Below the pieces are notes generated by a model. The model saw only the letters and a program-made list of their open reading frames with translations, searched no databases and had not been told where the DNA came from. Positions 22,382 to 31,146 of a DNA stretch of 35,488 bases are shown one piece after another; within the stretch, counting starts at the first letter, position 1; each line of letters starts with the position of its first letter. Position numbers and translations under genes: made by a program. This DNA is from an uncultured Eubacteriales bacterium (GTDB taxonomy: Bacteria; Bacillota; Clostridia; Peptostreptococcales; Anaerovoracaceae), in NCBI GenBank assembly GCA_902786355.1, contig CADABZ010000018.1:1-35488 (forward strand), in the 5' to 3' direction.

Positions 22382-22415
22382 TTTAAACTGTATTTAAGGA
22401 TGCTCATGTTATAGT
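22382..22415 (+). promoter_or_regulatory. Regulator promoter with 11-bp-spaced TTTAA repeats
   Basis: TTTAA at 22382 and TTTAAG at 22393 are in phase at 11 bp, the spacing typical of OmpR-family dimer sites. The second repeat ends about 11 bases before a TATAGT -10 box (22410-22415), taking the place of a -35. A second TATCAT lies at 22415-22420. The same pattern occurs at 24627 and 26448. Confidence 0.6.
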
Positions 22416-22454
22416 ATCATTATGGATAATAATGAACAGTATGGAGGATGACAC

Positions 22455-23135
22455 ATGAGGATACTGCTGGCTGAGGATGAAAAAGCTCTGTCGAGAGCTG
22501 TAGTCAAGATATTCGAAAGGAATAACTATTCGATCGATGCAGTGTATGACGGCGAAGAAGCTCTTGATTATCTCGAAGCCGGCAATTATGACTGCGCCGT
22601 TCTGGATATTATGATGCCTAAGATGGACGGCATCACCGTACTGAAGAAGCTCCGTGAAAGCGGAAGCACTCTTCCTGTTCTGATCCTTACGGCCAAGGCA
22701 GAGATAGATGACAAGGTGCTCGGGCTTGACAGCGGAGCTAACTATTACCTGACCAAGCCTTTCGATGCCAAAGAGCTCCTGGCAGCGGTCCGCGCGATCA
22801 CGCGCAAGAACCCTGAGGCAGGCACAAAGCTGTCTTTTGGCAATATCACACTCGACCGCTCTACCTTCGAGCTTGAATCGCCTTCCGGCAGTGTGAAGCT
22901 TGCCAATAAGGAGTTCCAGATGCTCGAGATGCTGATGGCCTCACCTAAGAATATAATCTCGGTGGATACGTTCATGGACCACATCTGGGGCTATGATACA
23001 GATACAGAGAGCAATGTTGTATGGGTGTATATCTCATACATCCGCAAGAAGCTCACTTCGCTGAAGGCTAATGTGAAGATAAAAGCATCAAGGAATGCAG
23101 GCTATTCGCTGGAGATCGCAGACGATGATCAATAG
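22455..23135 (+). CDS. OmpR-family response regulator
   Basis: DNA-binding partner of the histidine kinase encoded next. The 226 residues comprise a receiver domain (1-115) with the acidic pocket AEDE (Glu7, Asp8), the phospho-acceptor Asp51 in LDIMMP, Thr79 and Lys101, and a C-terminal winged-helix domain (about 125-222) ending in the usual NVVWVYISYIRKKL and AGYSLEI. A GGAGG site precedes the ATG. Its last codons overlap the kinase start by 11 bases. Direct repeats upstream of it and of two downstream transcription units suggest that it regulates itself and the surface-polymer genes. Confidence 0.95.
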   Translation: MRILLAEDEKALSRAVVKIFERNNYSIDAVYDGEEALDYLEAGNYDCAVLDIMMPKMDGITVLKKLRESGSTLPVLILTAKAEIDDKVLGLDSGANYYLTKPFDAKELLAAVRAITRKNPEAGTKLSFGNITLDRSTFELESPSGSVKLANKEFQMLEMLMASPKNIISVDTFMDHIWGYDTDTESNVVWVYISYIRKKLTSLKANVKIKASRNAGYSLEIADDDQ

Positions 23136-24564
23136 ACTCAAACGCAGATTCATAGTTCTCGCCATGATGTCGCTGAGCGTGCTTCTTGCAGCGATAGTCG
23201 CGGGAATGAATATCATGAACTACAATACAGTAGTCAATAAAGCGGACAAGACTCTTGAAATGCTGTCGGAGAACAAGGGGCGGATGCCGCTCCTTTTCGG
23301 CGACAAATCTGACAAAACGTATGATGACGATGATTCCGCAGATCAGGCTGCCCGGAAGCAAGAATACGATGACATAGACGCTGAGACCGGAGATTATAAC
23401 GGATCAGACGGAGCAGCTTCCGGAATGAACGGCAGAGGCGGAATGGCGCCCGGAGATATTTCCAGGGATGAGGCAGAGGAGATCAGGTTCTTTTCAGTTC
23501 TTGTAGATAAGGACGGAAAAGCAGTCTGGTCAGATACCGGCAGGATATACGCAGTAGACAGTGAGCAGGCTGAGGAATATGCAGAGGAAGCAGCAGCTTC
23601 GGGCAAGGACAAAGGCTTCAGGAACGAATACAGATATGCAGTATCTGAGGAGGGGGATAAGACAAGAGTCACATTTCTTGACTGCGGCAGGACGCTCAAG
23701 TCTTTCAGAGAGTTCCTGAGAGCGAGCATCATCATGTCTCTTGCAGGACTTCTCGCGGTCTTTGCGGTCATATGTTATTTTGCCGGGAAGATCGTCAGAC
23801 CGGTAGCTGAGAGCTATGAGAAGCAGAAGCGCTTCATCACTGATGCCGGACATGAGATCAAGACTCCGCTTGCTATCGTAAAGGCCAATATCGATGTGAT
23901 GCGAATGGACCTCGATGATATAAGGGAGGAAGAATCCGTCCGGGGAGACGGTGCCGGGGCAGAGCACGGAGATAAGGTAATGGAAGCCGTTGACAGCCTC
24001 GGTGAAAGCCTTTCAGATATAGACGGACAGGTGGACAGGCTGACTTCACTGACCAATGACCTTGTATATCTGTCAAGGATGGAGGAATCCGGCAGTCAGC
24101 TGACGATGACAGAGATACCGGTATCGGATATTGTATCAGAGACAGCCGACTCGTTCAGAACACTGGCAGCTGAGAGGAACAAATCTATCTCAGCGGATAT
24201 CACTCCGATGCTTACGATGACGGGAAGCAGCAAGGAGATCGAAAAGCTCGTATCCATACTCATGGAAAATGCTGTCAAGTATTCGCCTGAGGGAGGAAAC
24301 ATCAGTATTAAACTTTCAAGAGAAGGTAAGAATGTTGTGCTCGAGGTGGGAAACAAAGCCATCACACCTCTTTCGGATGAGGATCTCGGGCATGTATTCG
24401 ACAGATTCTACCGAACAGATAAATCCAGAAATTCCGAAGCCGGCGGGCATGGCATCGGGCTCTCGATGGCGAGCGCGATCGTAAATGCCCATGGCGGAAA
24501 GATCCGCGCCCGCAGCGGTGACGGATCGGAATTCATAGTCACCGCAGCCATGCCGGCGGTATGA
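23125..24564 (+). CDS. Sensor histidine kinase
   Basis: Membrane sensor that would phosphorylate the preceding regulator. I start it at the ATG at 23125 (GGAG 10 bases upstream, overlapping the regulator's end), giving 479 residues. Helix 1 spans about 9-31. An external domain of about 170 residues follows, including an Asp-run (YDDDD) and a Gly/Met stretch (GMNGRGGMAPG near 100-110). Helix 2 spans about 200-222. No clear HAMP domain separates helix 2 from the HisKA box GHEIKTPL with His243. The ATP-binding domain has the N-box MENAVKYSP, FDRFYRTDKSRN, and GGHGIGLSMA. The spacing between the H-box and the rest of HisKA is widened by a charged insert (REEESVRGDGAGAEHG). The stimulus is unknown. 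Confidence 0.94.
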   Translation: MINRLKRRFIVLAMMSLSVLLAAIVAGMNIMNYNTVVNKADKTLEMLSENKGRMPLLFGDKSDKTYDDDDSADQAARKQEYDDIDAETGDYNGSDGAASGMNGRGGMAPGDISRDEAEEIRFFSVLVDKDGKAVWSDTGRIYAVDSEQAEEYAEEAAASGKDKGFRNEYRYAVSEEGDKTRVTFLDCGRTLKSFREFLRASIIMSLAGLLAVFAVICYFAGKIVRPVAESYEKQKRFITDAGHEIKTPLAIVKANIDVMRMDLDDIREEESVRGDGAGAEHGDKVMEAVDSLGESLSDIDGQVDRLTSLTNDLVYLSRMEESGSQLTMTEIPVSDIVSETADSFRTLAAERNKSISADITPMLTMTGSSKEIEKLVSILMENAVKYSPEGGNISIKLSREGKNVVLEVGNKAITPLSDEDLGHVFDRFYRTDKSRNSEAGGHGIGLSMASAIVNAHGGKIRARSGDGSEFIVTAAMPAV

Positions 24565-24581
24565 TCTGCAACAGCTACACG

Positions 24582-24620
24582 GCAGCAGCGTTTCACAAAA
24601 GAAACAGCTGCTGCTTTTTT
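24582..24620 (+). terminator. Terminator of the two-component operon
   Basis: GCAGCAGC-GTTTC pairs with GAAAC-(A)-GCTGCTGC around a short A-rich loop, with one bulged A, followed by a T-run. Confidence 0.9.
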
Positions 24621-24626
24621 ATTTTC

Positions 24627-24659
24627 TTTAAGTTTTGTTTTAGTTTGCGGTTTTATCAT
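24627..24659 (+). promoter_or_regulatory. VTC-gene promoter with 11-bp-spaced TTTAAG repeats
   Basis: TTTAAG (24627) and TTTTAG (24638) are 11 bp apart. The second starts 16 bases before a TATCAT -10 box (24654-24659). The geometry is identical to the DUF4956 promoter at 26448 and very close to that of the response regulator. No conventional -35 is present, as expected for an activator-dependent promoter. Confidence 0.65.
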
Positions 24660-24684
24660 TCACATATCAAAGGAGGACAGAAAT

Positions 24685-25575
24685 ATGGCATACCAGAAAG
24701 TCTTCAAAAGATATGAACTCAAATATATGCTGACAAAGGAGCAGAAGGACAAAGTCGTCAGAGCCCTTCAGCCATATATGTCTATAGATCAGTACGGAAA
24801 GACTACAATCAGAAATATATATTTTGACACACCGGATTATATCCTTGCGCGTCATTCTATCGTCAAACCTGACTTTAAGGAGAAGCTTCGCGTGAGAAGC
24901 TACACCCAGGTCTCATCTGACGAGAAGGTATTCGTAGAGCTCAAGCGCAAATTCGATCACGTAGTATACAAGAGGAGGGTCGCTATCGCTGAGAAGGCTG
25001 CTATGGAATGGACTACAGGAGCCAAAGCATACGGTCATCAGGATGGACGCACCAATCAGCTCTGCAGCGAGATCAACTACTTCCTTGATTATTATAAAGA
25101 TCTGCAGCCGGTCATGTTCTTAAGCTATGACCGCGAGGCGTACAAAATGAGACCGGGACTGGATGATCAGGATTTCAGAGTGACTTTCGACGAGAACGTT
25201 CTGTGCAGAGATCACGATATGTCGCTTTGCTCTGAAGCATACGGAACGCCGATACTCGAAAGCGGCAAGGTACTGATGGAGCTGAAGTGCTCAGGAGGTA
25301 TCCCGCTCTGGATGGTCAGCATCCTTTCAGAAGAGAAGCTGTACAAGACATCCTTCTCAAAATACGGAACAGCATATACTCAGCTTGTAATCCCTGAGAT
25401 GGCAGAAGCGGCTGCTGCATCTGTGCTGCAGAGGCAGGCTGCCGGCGAGACAGAAGCAGAGACAGCAGAGAAAAGAAGCCCGCATACCGCTCCGGAAGTC
25501 AGAAAAAGAGCATTCAGGCAGCGCATGTTTCCGCACTGGACAGGATTTATGCAGGCTGCAGGCAAGACTGCCTGA
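24685..25575 (+). CDS. VTC-domain (polyphosphate polymerase-type) protein
   Basis: Belongs to the VTC domain family, whose eukaryotic member Vtc4 makes polyphosphate from ATP inside a tunnel-shaped fold. The tunnel residues are visible in order: FKRYELKYML, IRNIYFDTP, KEKLRVRSY, VFVELKRKF, YKRRVAI, and the late MELKCSGGIPLWM. The polymerase core thus seems complete in about 245 residues. A basic tail of about 50 residues without membrane helices completes the 296-residue protein. Bacterial members typically sit next to DUF4956 membrane proteins, as here (two genes downstream, under a matching promoter). Whether it makes polyphosphate or modifies another polymer is open. An AAGGAGG site precedes the ATG. 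Confidence 0.92.
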   Translation: MAYQKVFKRYELKYMLTKEQKDKVVRALQPYMSIDQYGKTTIRNIYFDTPDYILARHSIVKPDFKEKLRVRSYTQVSSDEKVFVELKRKFDHVVYKRRVAIAEKAAMEWTTGAKAYGHQDGRTNQLCSEINYFLDYYKDLQPVMFLSYDREAYKMRPGLDDQDFRVTFDENVLCRDHDMSLCSEAYGTPILESGKVLMELKCSGGIPLWMVSILSEEKLYKTSFSKYGTAYTQLVIPEMAEAAAASVLQRQAAGETEAETAEKRSPHTAPEVRKRAFRQRMFPHWTGFMQAAGKTA

Positions 25576-25613
25576 TCAGGAAACTGATCATTTTCCATAC
25601 TTTTCCTTAGAGG

Positions 25614-25655
25614 AAACACACCGCATAACGGATAAACAATATGCGGTGTGTTTTC
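25614..25655 (+). terminator. Terminator after the VTC gene
   Basis: A perfect 13-bp stem (25614-25626 with 25641-25653), 14-base loop, ending in TTTT. The stem's T-run overlaps the -35 of the next promoter. Confidence 0.88.
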
Positions 25656-25679
25656 ATTTGCTCCGAAAAAGGATATAAT
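25651..25679 (+). promoter_or_regulatory. Promoter of the flavin reductase gene
   Basis: TTTTCA (25651-25656), 17 bases, TATAAT (25674-25679). A leader of about 80 bases follows. It lacks the TTTAAG repeats of the neighbouring promoters, so this gene appears to be separately controlled. Confidence 0.6.
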
Positions 25680-25765
25680 CTGCTGTGAAAACAGACCGGC
25701 GGTCAGGATCGCAGGAGTATCCGGATGTTCTGAGGAGCCGGCTAAAATTACAGGAGGAAGAGAAA

Positions 25766-26335
25766 ATGAAAAAAGATCTTGGGATCCAGCAGGCAGTATT
25801 TCCTATGCCGGTGCTGATGGTCGCAGCTTATGATGCAAATGGTAAGGTCAATGCTATGAATGTAGCCTGGGGACAGATCGCAGGTTCAGATAAGATCTAT
25901 CTGTGTATCGGCAAGGGCAAGAAGACTCTGGCAAATATCAGAGAGAGCAAGGCATTTACTGTAGGACTTGCAGACCTGGCTCACATGAAGGAAGCAGACT
26001 TCCTCGGTATCGCTTCTGGCAATACTATGGAAGATAAATTCGAAAGATCCGGACTTACCGCAGTTAAGAGCAACAAGGTGAATGCACCTGTTATTGAGGA
26101 GTTTCCTGTCGTGATCGAGTGCGAGTTCCTTGAGGAGCTTGATACCGGGAACATACACGGAGCTGTAGGAAAGATCGTCAATGTCAAGGCAGAAGAATCC
26201 GCGCTTGATGAAGACGGCAAGCTTGATGTGACTAAGCTGAACATCCTTATGTTCGATAATTCAAAGCATGGCTACTTCACAGTAGGTGACCAGGTCGGTA
26301 CAGCATGGACAGAAGGCGTTGAGCTCATGAAATAA
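25766..26335 (+). CDS. Flavin reductase-like FMN-binding protein
   Basis: A small (189-residue) protein of the flavin reductase/FMN-binding split-barrel family, which holds FMN and passes electrons from NAD(P)H or a partner. The typical start FPMPVLMVAAYDANGKVNAMNVAWG and the segment LANIRESKAFTVGLA are seen. The substrate is unknown. I prefer the ATG at 25766 (AGGAGGAAG upstream) over an earlier in-frame start at 25685 that adds 27 unconserved-looking residues. It has its own promoter and terminator and lies between two units of the presumed two-component regulon. It may be an unrelated inserted gene. Confidence 0.9.
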   Translation: MKKDLGIQQAVFPMPVLMVAAYDANGKVNAMNVAWGQIAGSDKIYLCIGKGKKTLANIRESKAFTVGLADLAHMKEADFLGIASGNTMEDKFERSGLTAVKSNKVNAPVIEEFPVVIECEFLEELDTGNIHGAVGKIVNVKAEESALDEDGKLDVTKLNILMFDNSKHGYFTVGDQVGTAWTEGVELMK

Positions 26336-26404
26336 CGTGCGAAGGTGTCCTCCGGCATCTGTCAGAGGCGATCATAACATAATTAAATTAATCGCAATAT
26401 GTTT

Positions 26405-26447
26405 ACAGGACTGATAATTTCAAAATCAGTCCTGTTTTCTTTTTTTA
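26405..26447 (+). terminator. Terminator after the flavin reductase gene
   Basis: A perfect 11-bp stem (26405-26415 with 26425-26435), 9-base loop, followed by TTTCTTTTTTT. Confidence 0.94.
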
Positions 26448-26480
26448 TTTAATTTTGGTTTAAGTTCCTGCCCTTATCAT
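26448..26480 (+). promoter_or_regulatory. DUF4956-operon promoter with 11-bp-spaced TTTAAG repeats
   Basis: TTTAAT (26448) and TTTAAG (26459) are 11 bp apart, and TATCAT (26475-26480) starts 16 bases after the second, exactly as at the VTC promoter. It begins right after the terminator T-run. Confidence 0.65.
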
Positions 26481-26511: not shown

Positions 26512-27201
26512 ATGGATAACATTCTTACAGGACTTACACAGACACAGGCGGCAGACATAAGCATGTCACAGTTTGCACTCTCGGGCGCAGCAGCGCTTCT
26601 GCTCGGACTGGTAATAGCTTTTACATATATGTACAACACAAGATATACCAAGAGCTTCGTAGTGACGCTCGCACTTCTTCCGGCGATCATCTGCGTGATC
26701 ATAATCATGGTCAACGGAAGCGTCGGTACAGGTATCGCGGTCGCAGGCGCATTCAGCCTGGTCAGATTCCGCTCAGTGCCGGGAACAGCCAAGGAGATAT
26801 GTGCTCTCTTCCTGGCGATGGCATCAGGCCTCGTAGCCGGAACGGGCTACCTCGGGATCGCGGCAGTGTTCACAGCAGTGATGTGCCTGGCATTCATAAT
26901 ACTCAACAAGCTCGACCTCGGTTCGAAGAAGAACTCAGACAAATACAAGAGCTTCAGGATCATGGTCCCGGAAGATCTTGACTATACAGGTGTGTTCGAG
27001 AATGTGTTCGAAGAATACACAAGCTCATACGAACTGGTACAGGTAAGGACAACGAATATGGGCAGCATGTTCAGACTGACATATGACGTAGTGCTCAGAG
27101 ATCCTTCAAAAGAGAAGGAACTTATAGATAGGATCCGCTGCCGTAACGGCAACCTCGAGATCAATGTTTCAAGACAGGCAACATCGGCAACAGAACTCTA
27201 G
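26512..27201 (+). CDS. DUF4956 membrane protein
   Basis: An integral membrane protein of the DUF4956 family, function not established. Four hydrophobic helices (about residues 20-42, 48-68, 72-85 and 100-135 as a longer segment) surround the family hallmark GAFSLVRFRSVPGTAKEI. A soluble domain of about 85 residues ends the 229-residue protein. Family members usually accompany VTC-domain proteins, so it may be the membrane partner or exporter for that enzyme's product. That is inference. An AAGGAGG site precedes the ATG. First gene of a five-gene operon. Confidence 0.93.
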   Translation: MDNILTGLTQTQAADISMSQFALSGAAALLLGLVIAFTYMYNTRYTKSFVVTLALLPAIICVIIIMVNGSVGTGIAVAGAFSLVRFRSVPGTAKEICALFLAMASGLVAGTGYLGIAAVFTAVMCLAFIILNKLDLGSKKNSDKYKSFRIMVPEDLDYTGVFENVFEEYTSSYELVQVRTTNMGSMFRLTYDVVLRDPSKEKELIDRIRCRNGNLEINVSRQATSATEL

Positions 27202-27225: not shown

Positions 27226-28932
27226 ATGAATAATACAGAAATGAAAAAGAACGGAAGGAGCAACTGGAGGATCACCAGAAAGATGACTGCAGCAGCTATT
27301 GCAGCAATGCTGCTCTTCACAGGCTGCGCAGGCACAACCGCAGCTGCCGGATCAGATGTTTCAGCAGAAAAAACAAGTGCTGTCACAGAAACTGCAGCCG
27401 CATCAGAATCAGAACAGTTTACAGAACGCGACCTTTCCGGAGAATATGACGAAAGCAGTTCGGCCCGGATCACTCTCAGCGGCAGCAGCGCTTCAGCTGA
27501 TTCATCCGCATCCGGAGTAAGCATAGACGGCAGCACGATCACACTGAGCGCTGAGGGAACATATATCTTCAGCGGTACTCTGACAGACGGGCAGATAATC
27601 GTCGATGCAGATGATACAGCTAAGGTTCAGATAGTCCTGAACGGTGCGGACATCACCAGCAGCACTTCAGCAGCTGTATACGTCAGATCCGCAGACAAGG
27701 TCTTCGTGACTACAGCAGCCGGCAGTGAGAATACTCTGGCTAACGGCGGAACTTTTACAGCCATCGATGACAGCAATATAGATGGAGCTGTTTTCGCCAA
27801 GGACGACATCACATTCAACGGAAGCGGAAGCCTTACAGTCACTTCACCTGCAGGTCACGGTATCGTCGGCAAGGATGATGTCAAGATCGCAGGCGGCACC
27901 CTGAAGATAAGTGCGGCAAAGCACGGAGTGCAGGCCAATGACAGCGCAAGGTTCGCTGCAGCAGATGTGACCATAGAAGCCGGCACTGACGGAGTCCATG
28001 TTTCAGATAATGCTGATGAAGAGGAAGGTACAGCATCAGACAGTTACTTCTACATATCAGATGCTGATCTTAAGATCGATGCCGGAGATGACGGTGTCCA
28101 CGCAGATGCTCAGGCACTTATAGAAGGCGGCAGCATCACGGTCAGCAGTTCATACGAGGGCATCGAAGCTCTGGAGATATCCGTAAGCGGCGGTGACATA
28201 GATGTGACAGCCTCTGATGACGGATTCAATGCAGCAGGCGGAAATTCATCATCAACAGATACATCTTCCTTCGGTGAAGATGACTGGATGGGAGGCAAGG
28301 GAGGATTCCCGGGCGGCGGCGGATTCTCAGACGGAGGATCTGACGGAAGCATCAGCATCAGCGGAGGCAATATCAGGATCACAGCCGGAGGCGACGGCGT
28401 GGATTCCAATGGATCAGTACAGATCAGCGGAGGTACGACTGTAGTACAGGGACCTTCGCAGGGAGATACATCGATCCTGGATCACAATGTCTCAGCTACG
28501 ATAACCGGCGGAACATTCATCGGCACAGGCGGAGCAGGCATGGGTGAGACATTCACAAGTGTGGAGAATCAGGGTCTGATCACAGTCAGCACAGGCAGTC
28601 AGTCGGCCGGAAGCACAGTGAAACTCACGGATTCTGACGGAAATGTGATCGCAGAAACAACTCCTGAGCTTGACTATACAGCTGTATATATCAGCACAGC
28701 AGATATGGATGCGAACGGAACTTACACACTTACAGCAGGCTCGTACAGTGAGACGATCCAGCTGACAGACGGAGTATACAGCAGCATGGGCGGCGGCGCA
28801 GGCATGGGCGGCAAAGGCGGCATGGCCGGCGGACAGCAGAACTCTGGCGGCGAAGAAATGAGAGGCGGCGGTCCGGGAGGCCACTCAGGAATGGGACCTG
28901 GCGGCATGGACGGCGGCAGTCAGATGCAGTAA
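27226..28932 (+). CDS. Carbohydrate-binding-domain lipoprotein (beta-helix)
   Basis: A secreted, probably lipid-anchored protein. After a basic start, the hydrophobic stretch AAAIAAMLLFTGC ends in a lipobox-like site, with a Ser/Ala/Thr-rich spacer. Residues about 90-450 form repeated short strands with Gly/Asp turns (for example ADDGFNAAGG and GGDGVDSNG), typical of the right-handed beta-helix 'carbohydrate-binding domain' (DUF4353) family. Two Gly/Met-rich low-complexity patches occur: one inside (near 350-370) and one as the C-terminal 50 residues (such as GGHSGMGPGGMDGG). Length is 568 residues. An AAGGAGA site precedes the ATG. It presumably binds or organises the polymer made by this locus. 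No catalytic motif is recognised. Confidence 0.86.
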   Translation: MNNTEMKKNGRSNWRITRKMTAAAIAAMLLFTGCAGTTAAAGSDVSAEKTSAVTETAAASESEQFTERDLSGEYDESSSARITLSGSSASADSSASGVSIDGSTITLSAEGTYIFSGTLTDGQIIVDADDTAKVQIVLNGADITSSTSAAVYVRSADKVFVTTAAGSENTLANGGTFTAIDDSNIDGAVFAKDDITFNGSGSLTVTSPAGHGIVGKDDVKIAGGTLKISAAKHGVQANDSARFAAADVTIEAGTDGVHVSDNADEEEGTASDSYFYISDADLKIDAGDDGVHADAQALIEGGSITVSSSYEGIEALEISVSGGDIDVTASDDGFNAAGGNSSSTDTSSFGEDDWMGGKGGFPGGGGFSDGGSDGSISISGGNIRITAGGDGVDSNGSVQISGGTTVVQGPSQGDTSILDHNVSATITGGTFIGTGGAGMGETFTSVENQGLITVSTGSQSAGSTVKLTDSDGNVIAETTPELDYTAVYISTADMDANGTYTLTAGSYSETIQLTDGVYSSMGGGAGMGGKGGMAGGQQNSGGEEMRGGGPGGHSGMGPGGMDGGSQMQ

Positions 28933-28954: not shown

Positions 28955-30214
28955 ATGACAACAGCATACATAGCATTGATACCGGCGTATGAGCCGGACA
29001 GGAAGCTGCTCGGTGTCATTGCAGGCCTCGGCAAAGCGGGTATGGATATAGTTCTGGTCGATGACGGAAGCGGGACTGAGTATTCAGAATTGTTTGAACA
29101 GGCCTGCGAGAGACTTCCGGGACGCTCCGGAGGCAGCGTGACCCTGCTCATACATGAGGAAAACCAGGGCAAGGGTGCAGCGATCAAGACCGGACTGAGG
29201 CATATCAGCAGCATAACAGCCGGTGATCCTTCAGACACCGTGATCGTGACAGTTGATGCAGACGGACAGCATCTGACGGGCGATGTGATCAATACAGCAC
29301 GTGCAGCAGCTTCAAGACCGGGTACGCTCGTTCTGGGGAGCAGGAGCTTTGCGGGTGATGTCCCTGCAAGGAGCCGCTTCGGCAACTCCGTGACAAGAGG
29401 AGTGTTCAGGCTGGCTTCAGGCAGGAAGATATACGACACACAGACAGGTCTGAGAGCTTTTACCGCTGACATGATACCAATGATGCTCAGCATCAGCGGC
29501 AACAGATATGAATATGAGATCAATGTGTTGCTGGAGCTCGCACATAACGCATCTGCGATCACAGAAGTGCCGGCTGAAACAGTCTACCTTGACGGTAACA
29601 GTTCATCACATTTCAGCACACTCAAAGATTCATACAGGATCTACAGAGAGATAGGACGGTATTTTGCATCGCATACGCTGAAGCAGATGATAGGTTTTTC
29701 GGCCTCATCGTTCGTCTCATTCCTGATAGACTATGCCCTGTACGCTCTGATACTCTTCTGCGGCGCAGGGATAATCACAGCCAATATAGGCGCCAGAGTG
29801 ATCAGCGCTGCAGCTAACTATACGATCAACCGCAGGATGGTCTTCAGGAGCAAAACAAGTGTTACGCAGTCTGCTGCAAAATACTTCCTCCTCGCTGTGA
29901 TGATCCTCGCGGGAAATACCATAGTTCTCAGTACGCTATGCGGCGCCGGTATGGGAAAGATGACGGCAAAGATCATCACTGAGATAACATTCTTCCTGAT
30001 CAGCTGGATAGTTCAGAGATATGTCATCTTCTACCGCGATGAGATGAATACAGAAGCAGCTGAAGAGGCTGCCATCAGCACACAGGCAGAACCGGCAGCC
30101 GGCAGCAGAAGATTCACTATGGAATACAGGGCGGTCAGGCCTAAGAGACTGCGCGAAATGTACTGCAGAAGCAGCCTGCAGATGAGCGCAGGTCTGCGTG
30201 AGGCCGCAGACTGA
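28955..30214 (+). CDS. Bifunctional GT2 glycosyltransferase-GtrA protein
   Basis: The N-terminal part (about 1-235) is a GT2 glycosyltransferase of the dolichol/undecaprenyl-phosphate sugar type: ALIPAYEPD, VLVDDGSG, NQGKGAAIKTGL, the DxD-like VDADGQH, and TGLRAF. The second part (about 240-360) is a GtrA domain with four membrane helices (SFLIDYALY, NYTINRRMVFRS, and WIVQRYVIFY), proposed to flip lipid-linked sugars. A tail of about 60 charged residues follows. Such fusions load a sugar onto a lipid carrier and move it across the membrane for transfer to a surface polymer. AGGGAGA precedes the ATG. Third gene of the operon. The sugar is not predictable. Confidence 0.93.
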   Translation: MTTAYIALIPAYEPDRKLLGVIAGLGKAGMDIVLVDDGSGTEYSELFEQACERLPGRSGGSVTLLIHEENQGKGAAIKTGLRHISSITAGDPSDTVIVTVDADGQHLTGDVINTARAAASRPGTLVLGSRSFAGDVPARSRFGNSVTRGVFRLASGRKIYDTQTGLRAFTADMIPMMLSISGNRYEYEINVLLELAHNASAITEVPAETVYLDGNSSSHFSTLKDSYRIYREIGRYFASHTLKQMIGFSASSFVSFLIDYALYALILFCGAGIITANIGARVISAAANYTINRRMVFRSKTSVTQSAAKYFLLAVMILAGNTIVLSTLCGAGMGKMTAKIITEITFFLISWIVQRYVIFYRDEMNTEAAEEAAISTQAEPAAGSRRFTMEYRAVRPKRLREMYCRSSLQMSAGLREAAD

Positions 30215-30234: not shown

Positions 30235-31146
30235 ATGATCAGAAAACACAAACTGATGACCATAAGCATGATACTGCTTATGAGCTTCACGATATACGTG
30301 ATAATGGATACATTCTTCATTGCAAGAGTTTACGGAGACGAGACGTCCCGGGCGGCAGAAACGGCTGCAGCAGAAACTGCATCATCTGAGACCGTCAGAA
30401 ATGAGGCGGCTTCAGAGGCTGCAGTGACAGAAGACAGCTATTCTGACGGGAACATCAATGTGACTCTCTCAGAATACAGACAGAATGATACGACCATATA
30501 TGTCGCAGATGTTACGGTCTCATCGCCTGAATATCTTAAAACAGCTCTGGCTGAAGGAACTTATGGCAGGAATATCACACAGACGACTTCAGATATAGCG
30601 GAGGATGCGGGTGCCGTTCTGGCAGTAAACGGCGATTATTACGGGGCGCAGGAGAACGGATATGTCATAAGGAACGGAGTCCTGTACAGAGATAAGGGCG
30701 AAAGCGGACAGGAGGACCTTGTCATATACAGCGACGGCTCTATGAAAGTGATCGATGAAGGAGAGGTAAGTGCACAGGAACTTCTCGAAGACGGCGCTCA
30801 GCAGACCTTGTCGTTCGGACCTGCTCTGGTTGAAGACGGCAGCATAAGTGTCAGTGAGGGAGAAGAAGTCGGCAGAGCAATGGCAAGCAATCCGCGGACA
30901 GCGATCGGAATGATCGACGAGAACCACTACATATTCGTAGTGTCCGACGGCAGAAGCGATGAAAGTGAAGGGCTTTCACTGTATGAGCTTGCTGAATTCA
31001 TGCAGTCAATGGGGGCTGAGACTGCATACAATCTCGACGGAGGCGGCTCATCGACTATGTACTTCAATGGCGAGATAGTCAACAACCCGACCGGCGGAAG
31101 AGGAGAGAGCGAAAGGAAGGTGAGTGACATTGTTTACATCGGATAG
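30235..31146 (+). CDS. Phosphodiester glycosidase family protein
   Basis: An exported hydrolase related to the human 'uncovering enzyme' (NAGPA), which removes sugars linked through a phosphodiester. One N-terminal signal/anchor helix (about 8-33) is followed by an Ala/Glu/Ser-rich linker and the catalytic domain. Conserved motifs are AVNGDYYG, NPRTAIGM, VVSDGRS, AYNLDGGGSSTMYFNG and the closing DIVYIG. Length is 303 residues. In this operon it would trim or remodel a phosphate-linked glycan, consistent with the nearby sugar-lipid transferase and VTC protein. It ends inside the next gene (23-base overlap), so the two are coupled. Confidence 0.93.
   Translation: MIRKHKLMTISMILLMSFTIYVIMDTFFIARVYGDETSRAAETAAAETASSETVRNEAASEAAVTEDSYSDGNINVTLSEYRQNDTTIYVADVTVSSPEYLKTALAEGTYGRNITQTTSDIAEDAGAVLAVNGDYYGAQENGYVIRNGVLYRDKGESGQEDLVIYSDGSMKVIDEGEVSAQELLEDGAQQTLSFGPALVEDGSISVSEGEEVGRAMASNPRTAIGMIDENHYIFVVSDGRSDESEGLSLYELAEFMQSMGAETAYNLDGGGSSTMYFNGEIVNNPTGGRGESERKVSDIVYIG

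Follow-up and report, generated by a model that had tools for sequence, protein, structure and literature searches.

The 35,488-base stretch of contig CADABZ010000018.1 analysed here, called the window below, comes from an uncultured Eubacteriales bacterium of the family Anaerovoracaceae (assembly GCA_902786355.1) and contains an 11-base repeat before three neighbouring genes, which encode an OmpR-type response regulator (RR), a VTC-domain protein and a DUF4956 protein. The repeat is a real and conserved control site. Judged from its letters, it is a box of the type already known for the streptococcal regulator CiaR, TTTAAG-N5-TTTAAG, which had been overlooked in an earlier sequence-only reading of the window. 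It is highly likely that a CiaR-type two-component system activates itself, a VTC/DUF4956/Cthe_2159 envelope module, a lipoprotein gene and, often, the gene of the protease HtrA. The boxes are very probably bound by the adjacent RR.

The three boxes were read directly, all on the plus strand. The RR box (22382..22398, TTTAAA CTGTA TTTAAG) lies upstream of the RR gene and is followed after 11 nucleotides (nt) by the -10 element TATAGT (22410..22415). The VTC box (24627..24643, TTTAAG TTTTG TTTTAG) and the DUF4956 box (26448..26464, TTTAAT TTTGG TTTAAG) lie upstream of their genes, and each is followed after 10 nt by TATCAT (24654..24659 and 26475..26480). As the sequence-only reading had claimed, the half-sites recur with a period of exactly 11 bp at the positions it gave, the -10 elements begin 17 (RR), 16 (VTC) and 16 (DUF4956) bases after the start of the second half-site, and none of the promoters has a normal -35 (no more than 2 of the 6 TTGACA positions match, with spacers of 15-19). 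Its TTTAA half-sites were recovered at the RR and DUF4956 promoters but not in the second half-site at VTC, which is TTTTA(G). Each box has 1 mismatch to TTTAAG-N5-TTTAAG over the 12 half-site positions. On both strands of the window, the pattern TTT[A/T]A-N6-TTT[A/T]A was found only at these three places, and dinucleotide Markov controls gave a mean of 0.075 per window and a maximum of 2 in 200 control sequences. When the repeat was scored together with the -10 element, 3 places in the window reached at least 15/18, compared with 0 in 100 control sequences. The flavin reductase-like gene between the VTC and DUF4956 genes served as an internal negative control; its promoter match (25651..25679, plus strand) is sigma-70-like (TTTTCA at 25651, 17, TATAAT, 10/12) and lacks the repeat, as had been noted.

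The conservation of the box was evaluated at VTC loci of relatives. VTC matches were present in 58 of 99 genomes (own included). Of the loci in the 57 relatives, 39 entered the analysis (L017 and 38 new regions, chosen mostly for their top scores), with genes mapped by tblastn. The box score was the best match to TTTAAG-N5-TTTAAG-N9..11-TATAAT within 260 nt upstream of the gene start, with a maximum of 18. With the window included, a score of at least 14/18 was reached at 23/26 RR, 34/40 VTC and 23/37 DUF4956 starts. No such box was found at the control starts of the histidine kinase (0/24), Cthe_2159 (0/26), ORF 31124 (0/22), flavin reductase (0/4), MPE (0/7), NAGPA (0/6), ApbE (0/6) and DUF1295 (0/2) genes. 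Overall, 2 of 127 control starts scored at least 14/18, both of them explained: the one among the glycosyltransferase 2 (GT2) starts (1/23) is the box of L069 at the head of a rearranged gene row, and the one among the BMP starts (1/7) is really the RR box of L064, about 270 nt upstream of RR. Most orthologous promoters keep the box, which contradicts the loss of the repeat in a retained gene order that the sequence-only reading had named as evidence against itself. In L043 and L048, DUF4956 follows close behind VTC and has no box of its own, and its box scores 13 in L047, L052 and L066. A box of at least 14.5 was not found in L065, L068, L070 and L071. The box was also seen before VTC in the more distant genomes G054, G068, G090 and G097, with a best fit of 9 nt to the -10. 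In G057 (L069), GT2, NAGPA, VTC, DUF4956 and Cthe_2159 genes stand in a row with a single box before GT2, and RR is divergent from the row. In G023, a good box (L156/L061) lies near the end of contig C11 and 180 nt of contig C21 precede the VTC gene; the two contig ends share one repeat, and a repeated element may have split this promoter from its gene.

Among TTTAAG-like pairs in promoters of the same genus, a spacing of 11 was the commonest at VTC (23/31), RR (18/22) and DUF4956 (12/28), and it was absent at the starts of four control genes (0/23, 0/22, 0/22 and 0/21, or 0/88). Where the score was at least 14, the second half-site was separated from the -10 by N10 in 71 of 74 promoters (18/21 RR, 30/30 VTC, 23/23 DUF4956). 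The consensus was TTaAgTTT.atTTAAGTTTcg.ctg.TATcaT for the VTC promoter and TTtAgTTTcgTTTAAGtTtgggccgtTATTAT for the DUF4956 promoter; whereas the flanks vary, the second half-site keeps its AAG and the spacing stays at 11 bp.

Boxes were also found at promoters unlinked to this locus. On contig C10 of the own genome, the site TTTTAG-TTTCG-TTTTAG-N10-TATACT has a -10 that ends 34 nt before the gene of a predicted secreted lipoprotein (494 amino acids, Gly/Pro-rich tail). Orthologs were present in 23 of 60 genomes, namely 23/36 of the genus (own included) and 0/24 of the others, and the box was found in 19 of 20 distinct scorable promoters; L108, a duplicate of L101, was counted once, and 7 of 28 loci without the N-terminus in the match were left unscored. 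The lipoprotein gave no Pfam match and no PDB match, and from its repeats a beta-helix fold may be guessed. HtrA matches were obtained in 43 of 47 genus genomes; the L143 ortholog was the one whose domains were scanned. Promoters were examined for 30 of the 43 htrA matches, and 22 had a box of at least 14, the boxes of the ten nearest species being closely alike; a script picked the htrA gene starts, and several look wrong (L170, L177, L178 and L192 among them). A scan of the 47 genus genomes with at most 2 mismatches returned 130 matches, compared with 31 for the reversed pattern. On the coding strand, 81 of the 130 lay before five families (VTC 22, DUF4956 19, HtrA 18, lipoprotein 13, RR 9) within an upstream limit of 260 nt, widened to 800 nt for HtrA in view of its variable N-terminus. 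The remaining 49, to be set beside the 31 of the reversed pattern, had no family assignment and are not claimed as members. The sequence-only reading had proposed a regulon of RR, VTC and the DUF4956 operon; these members are supported, but it was too narrow, as the unlinked lipoprotein and, in many relatives, htrA have to be added.

Matches that were found in one or two genomes before assorted open reading frames (ORFs), some of which we take to be alanine-racemase-like and formyltransferase-like, are likewise not claimed. The box sequences of L150 (G020:C25) and G017:C3 are identical, and the gene behind the former is presumably alanine-racemase-like. A box before the gene of a PDZ-type membrane protein was seen in L152 (G015:C31), in which the PDZ domain was scanned, and in L158 (G043:C20); the G043 gene lies directly upstream of RR, and the box sequence of G039:C20 equals that of G015. 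L155 (G030:C18:72417-72449, minus strand) has a good box, and from about 75 nt after its -10 onward there is a long inverted repeat that runs out into a T-run; no clear ORF separates the two. This csRNA-like arrangement was seen in a single genome, csRNAs not having been searched for systematically. In the own genome, the matches at C8:43620, C8:56142, C9:4863, C12:4863 and C13:23878 were set aside; the ORF behind the first is presumably phosphofructokinase-like.

The regulator itself resembles CiaR. The RR gene (22455..23135, plus strand; Pfam Response_reg and Trans_reg_C) adjoins that of a sensor histidine kinase (23125..24564, plus strand; HisKA and HATPase_c), so the receiver and winged helix next to a HisKA/HATPase kinase show the OmpR/PhoB two-component layout. 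The CiaR-like recognition helix of RR, VVWVYISYIRKKL, is identical to that of CiaR, VVEVYVSKVRKKL, at 9 of 13 positions, and the overall identity to the CiaR proteins extracted was 36-40%. In both Streptococcus genomes searched, CiaR was the best match of RR (E 2e-45 and 7e-44; next 2e-30 and 2e-29), and with 4 of 4 CiaR queries the window RR was the best match among five OmpR-type proteins of its own genome, with a small lead of 2 to 12 bits over L110. In a tree of 47 proteins, the RR clade and CiaR fell into one 26-row group (94/85) together with two other regulators, and the order inside it was not separated. As a DNA pattern, the exact CiaR helix occurred only in Streptococcus-titled records of the collection searched (78/78 stretches). 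The kinase resembled the kinases beside CiaR in its C-terminal half only (28-31% identity, 109-117 bits; next kinase 104). Both CiaR genes included as positive controls (L273, L274) had a box near the start. According to the available text of PMC3091779, which also gives the CiaR helix, the CiaR box is TTTAAG-N5-TTTAAG, its search model places the -10 at a distance of ten, and in csRNA promoters each half-site invariably ends in G. In the window, the final G is present in all three second half-sites, and the first half-site ends in A at RR and T at DUF4956, so the invariance fails at two of three. Filing RR as a strict CiaR ortholog is unsupported, because the helix is not that of CiaR, two first half-sites lack the final G and the tree does not separate the group.

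The presence of the box was compared with that of RR. Genomes with an RR ortholog (32) had a mean of 3.4 matches (control 0.6), and those without (15) had a mean of 1.5 (control 0.7; one-sided Mann-Whitney p=0.0002). Among the VTC loci, 31 had RR and box, 3 RR only, 3 box only and 3 neither (Fisher p=0.03); RR without box was seen in L061 (cut short), L065 and L069 (box at the head of the row). The co-occurrence with RR, with its exceptions, the box heading the rearranged row, the CiaR-like helix and the unlinked targets support the earlier assignment of the regulon to the adjacent RR.

A number of observations weigh against this assignment. Neither statistic was corrected for relatedness or incomplete assemblies. 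A VTC box occurs without an RR ortholog at E<=1e-60 in G022, G026 and G039 (92, 87 and 67% complete), an htrA box in G042 (L170) and a lipoprotein box in G022 (L086). In G058, where RR has a match of about 50% identity, the VTC gene lacks the box. In G097 the VTC box is present and RR lies on another contig, where no box was found close upstream of this 62% ortholog; in the AT-rich G090 and G097 the boxes are less distinct, with best-of-shuffle means of 12.7 and 13.1. Of the 30 htrA loci, 8 had a box score below 14, and RR was present in the genomes of seven of these 8; in the own genome the site on C22, 41 nt before the gene of the HtrA-type protease, is weak (TTTATA-N5-TTTAAA). A 10-bp pair was also frequent at RR promoters of the genus (11/22). 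The own-genome scan with at most 3 mismatches gave 9 places (the VTC site, the DUF4956 site and seven others) compared with 6 for the reversed pattern, and the N11 scan gave 7 compared with 3, of which 6 of the 7, all but the RR promoter, are not claimed. As these counts are barely above control, the number alone proves little, and position and conservation decide.

A paralogous OmpR-type regulator might instead be the main protein that binds the boxes, in which case the adjacent RR would be either a bystander or one member of a pair. The boxes in G022, G026, G039 and G042 would fit this, as would G097, where the box stands before the gene of the 44%-identical L275 and not before that of the 62% ortholog. 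L275 (G097:C1:1142064) is a second RR with the helix NNVEVYISFLRKKL and a box before its own gene, 9 nt from the -10; this type of box may be common to it and the VTC-type RR. Against this, the four other OmpR-type matches of the own genome are at most 38% identical to RR and have different helices, the box recurs before the gene of RR itself, genomes without RR have fewer matches, and the extracted orthologs of the genus all have the helix VVWVYISYxRKKL, save I/V, I/L and one final M. Control by a paralog is thus unlikely, and control by the adjacent RR is preferred.

In OmpR/PhoB-type regulation, a head-to-tail dimer can take the place of a -35 element, and the geometry of the boxes fits such a dimer. 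The kinase would sense an envelope-related signal and phosphorylate its cognate RR, and the phosphorylated RR dimer would bind head-to-tail to TTTAAG-N5-TTTAAG. Assuming a transcription start 7 nt downstream of the -10, the half-sites would span roughly -39 to -34 and -28 to -23. The bound dimer would stand in for the missing -35 and recruit RNA polymerase to the -10 located 10-11 nt downstream, activating the RR operon, the VTC gene, the DUF4956-Cthe_2159 operon and the unlinked lipoprotein gene, as well as HtrA in many relatives and, more weakly, in the own genome. As the box overlaps the -35 region, and as CiaR represses one target, manLMN, according to the available text of PMC8317062, RR could instead repress these promoters from the same box; but there is no -35 to occlude, and the box is placed as in CiaR-activated promoters, 10 nt from the -10, in the available text of PMC3091779. 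Since the half-site geometry fits a dimer replacing the -35, activation is likelier and repression quite improbable. It is extremely improbable that the repeats are terminator T-tails and AT-rich, UP-like promoter DNA matching by chance, with no specific regulator: by eye, the inverted repeat and T-run of the preceding gene stop immediately upstream of the VTC and DUF4956 boxes (the terminator scan listed neither), which leaves a different origin possible for some of the T's, but the AAG and the 11-bp spacing are conserved beside variable flanks, boxes occur at the unlinked lipoprotein and htrA promoters and not at control starts, and the genus scan returned the excess described above, mostly before five families. 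Chance or AT-richness is rejected in view of the uniqueness in the window, the Markov controls, the control starts and the unlinked targets.

The genes of the locus are all on the plus strand. The VTC gene (24685..25575; PF09359, E=8e-42) encodes a predicted polyphosphate-polymerase-type protein. It is followed by the flavin reductase-like gene (25766..26335), which stays outside the regulon; it was found in 4 of 40 VTC loci, some of whose contigs are cut. In the window, its presence leaves the DUF4956 box intact, and in L066 it stands in another gene arrangement. The DUF4956 gene (26512..27201; PF16316, E=1e-15) is predicted to form one operon with the gene of a predicted secreted Cthe_2159-family protein with a Gly/Met-rich tail (27226..28932; PF14262, E=7e-72), which begins after a 24-nt gap. 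The gene of a GT2 and GtrA-type membrane protein (28955..30214; PF00535, PF04138) and that of a NAGPA-type phosphodiester glycosidase (30235..31146; PF09992) are probably on the same transcript, given gaps of 22 and 20 nt.

Among known systems, CiaRH of Streptococcus shares the repeat, the 5-bp gap, the 10 nt to the -10 and the box at the regulator's own promoter, and its targets in the available text of PMC8317062 include htrA and ciaRH itself. Likewise, htrA is boxed in many relatives here, and the regulators are reciprocal best matches in the genomes compared; the present system probably functions like CiaRH. Unlike CiaRH, the helix here has W for E, the first half-site G is absent at 2 of 3 window boxes, the targets are VTC, DUF4956 and secreted-protein genes, and the kinases are alike only in the C-terminal half. 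The predicted target set is largely new for a CiaR-type system, being mostly a putative cell-surface module. In Bacillus, the available text of PMC4938410 reports for BAS0540-BAS0541 a CiaR-like regulator that bound TTTAAG-N5-TTTAAG-type upstream sites, its own included, in electrophoretic mobility shift assays. That system shares with ours a regulator described as of this kind and such sites outside streptococci; its target table, in the same text, has no VTC/DUF4956 gene. Gram-positive pel operons adjoin CotH, poly-phosphate-polymerase and DUF4956 accessory genes in the available text of PMC7112168, so a polyphosphate-polymerase-type and a DUF4956 protein are encoded together there too. Unlike here, those genes go with Pel polysaccharide and CotH (pel/CotH not searched for in this genome), and here a Cthe_2159-type protein, a glycosyltransferase and a two-component system stand alongside. 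In the available texts, expression of a VTC-domain gene is listed for Clostridium perfringens with the regulator unnamed (PMC4983038), the 17-bp AT-rich motif of CarSR appears in a figure only, which allows no comparison with the box (PMC12186487), and no LisR consensus was known for LisRK (PMC4132741). Among the open-access papers listed, most of them covered at listing level, none was seen to link VTC/DUF4956 genes to a two-component system or to place the CiaR box in Clostridia.

The nature of the targets suggests a role in assembling envelope polymers and in quality control. It may tentatively be proposed, with considerable doubt, that a CiaR-type box with htrA among its targets marks an old regulon for envelope homeostasis rather than a streptococcal invention, and that the main output of this regulon here would be a machine of VTC, DUF4956 and repeat-rich proteins making or anchoring a phosphate-containing surface polymer. 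This proposal is weaker because the available text of PMC4938410 sets the predicted BAS0540-BAS0541 regulon against the HtrA-containing streptococcal CiaRH regulon. If true, it would offer the first regulator of DUF4956 modules and a handle for finding their conditions; the very name of DUF4956 marks it as a domain of unknown function, and it appears in 3 papers of the open-access collection searched. Through the regulator, the box and the genes controlled along with it (HtrA and predicted secreted proteins), the VTC/DUF4956 module is connected with envelope functions, and one short motif allows the regulon to be predicted across many uncultured genomes.

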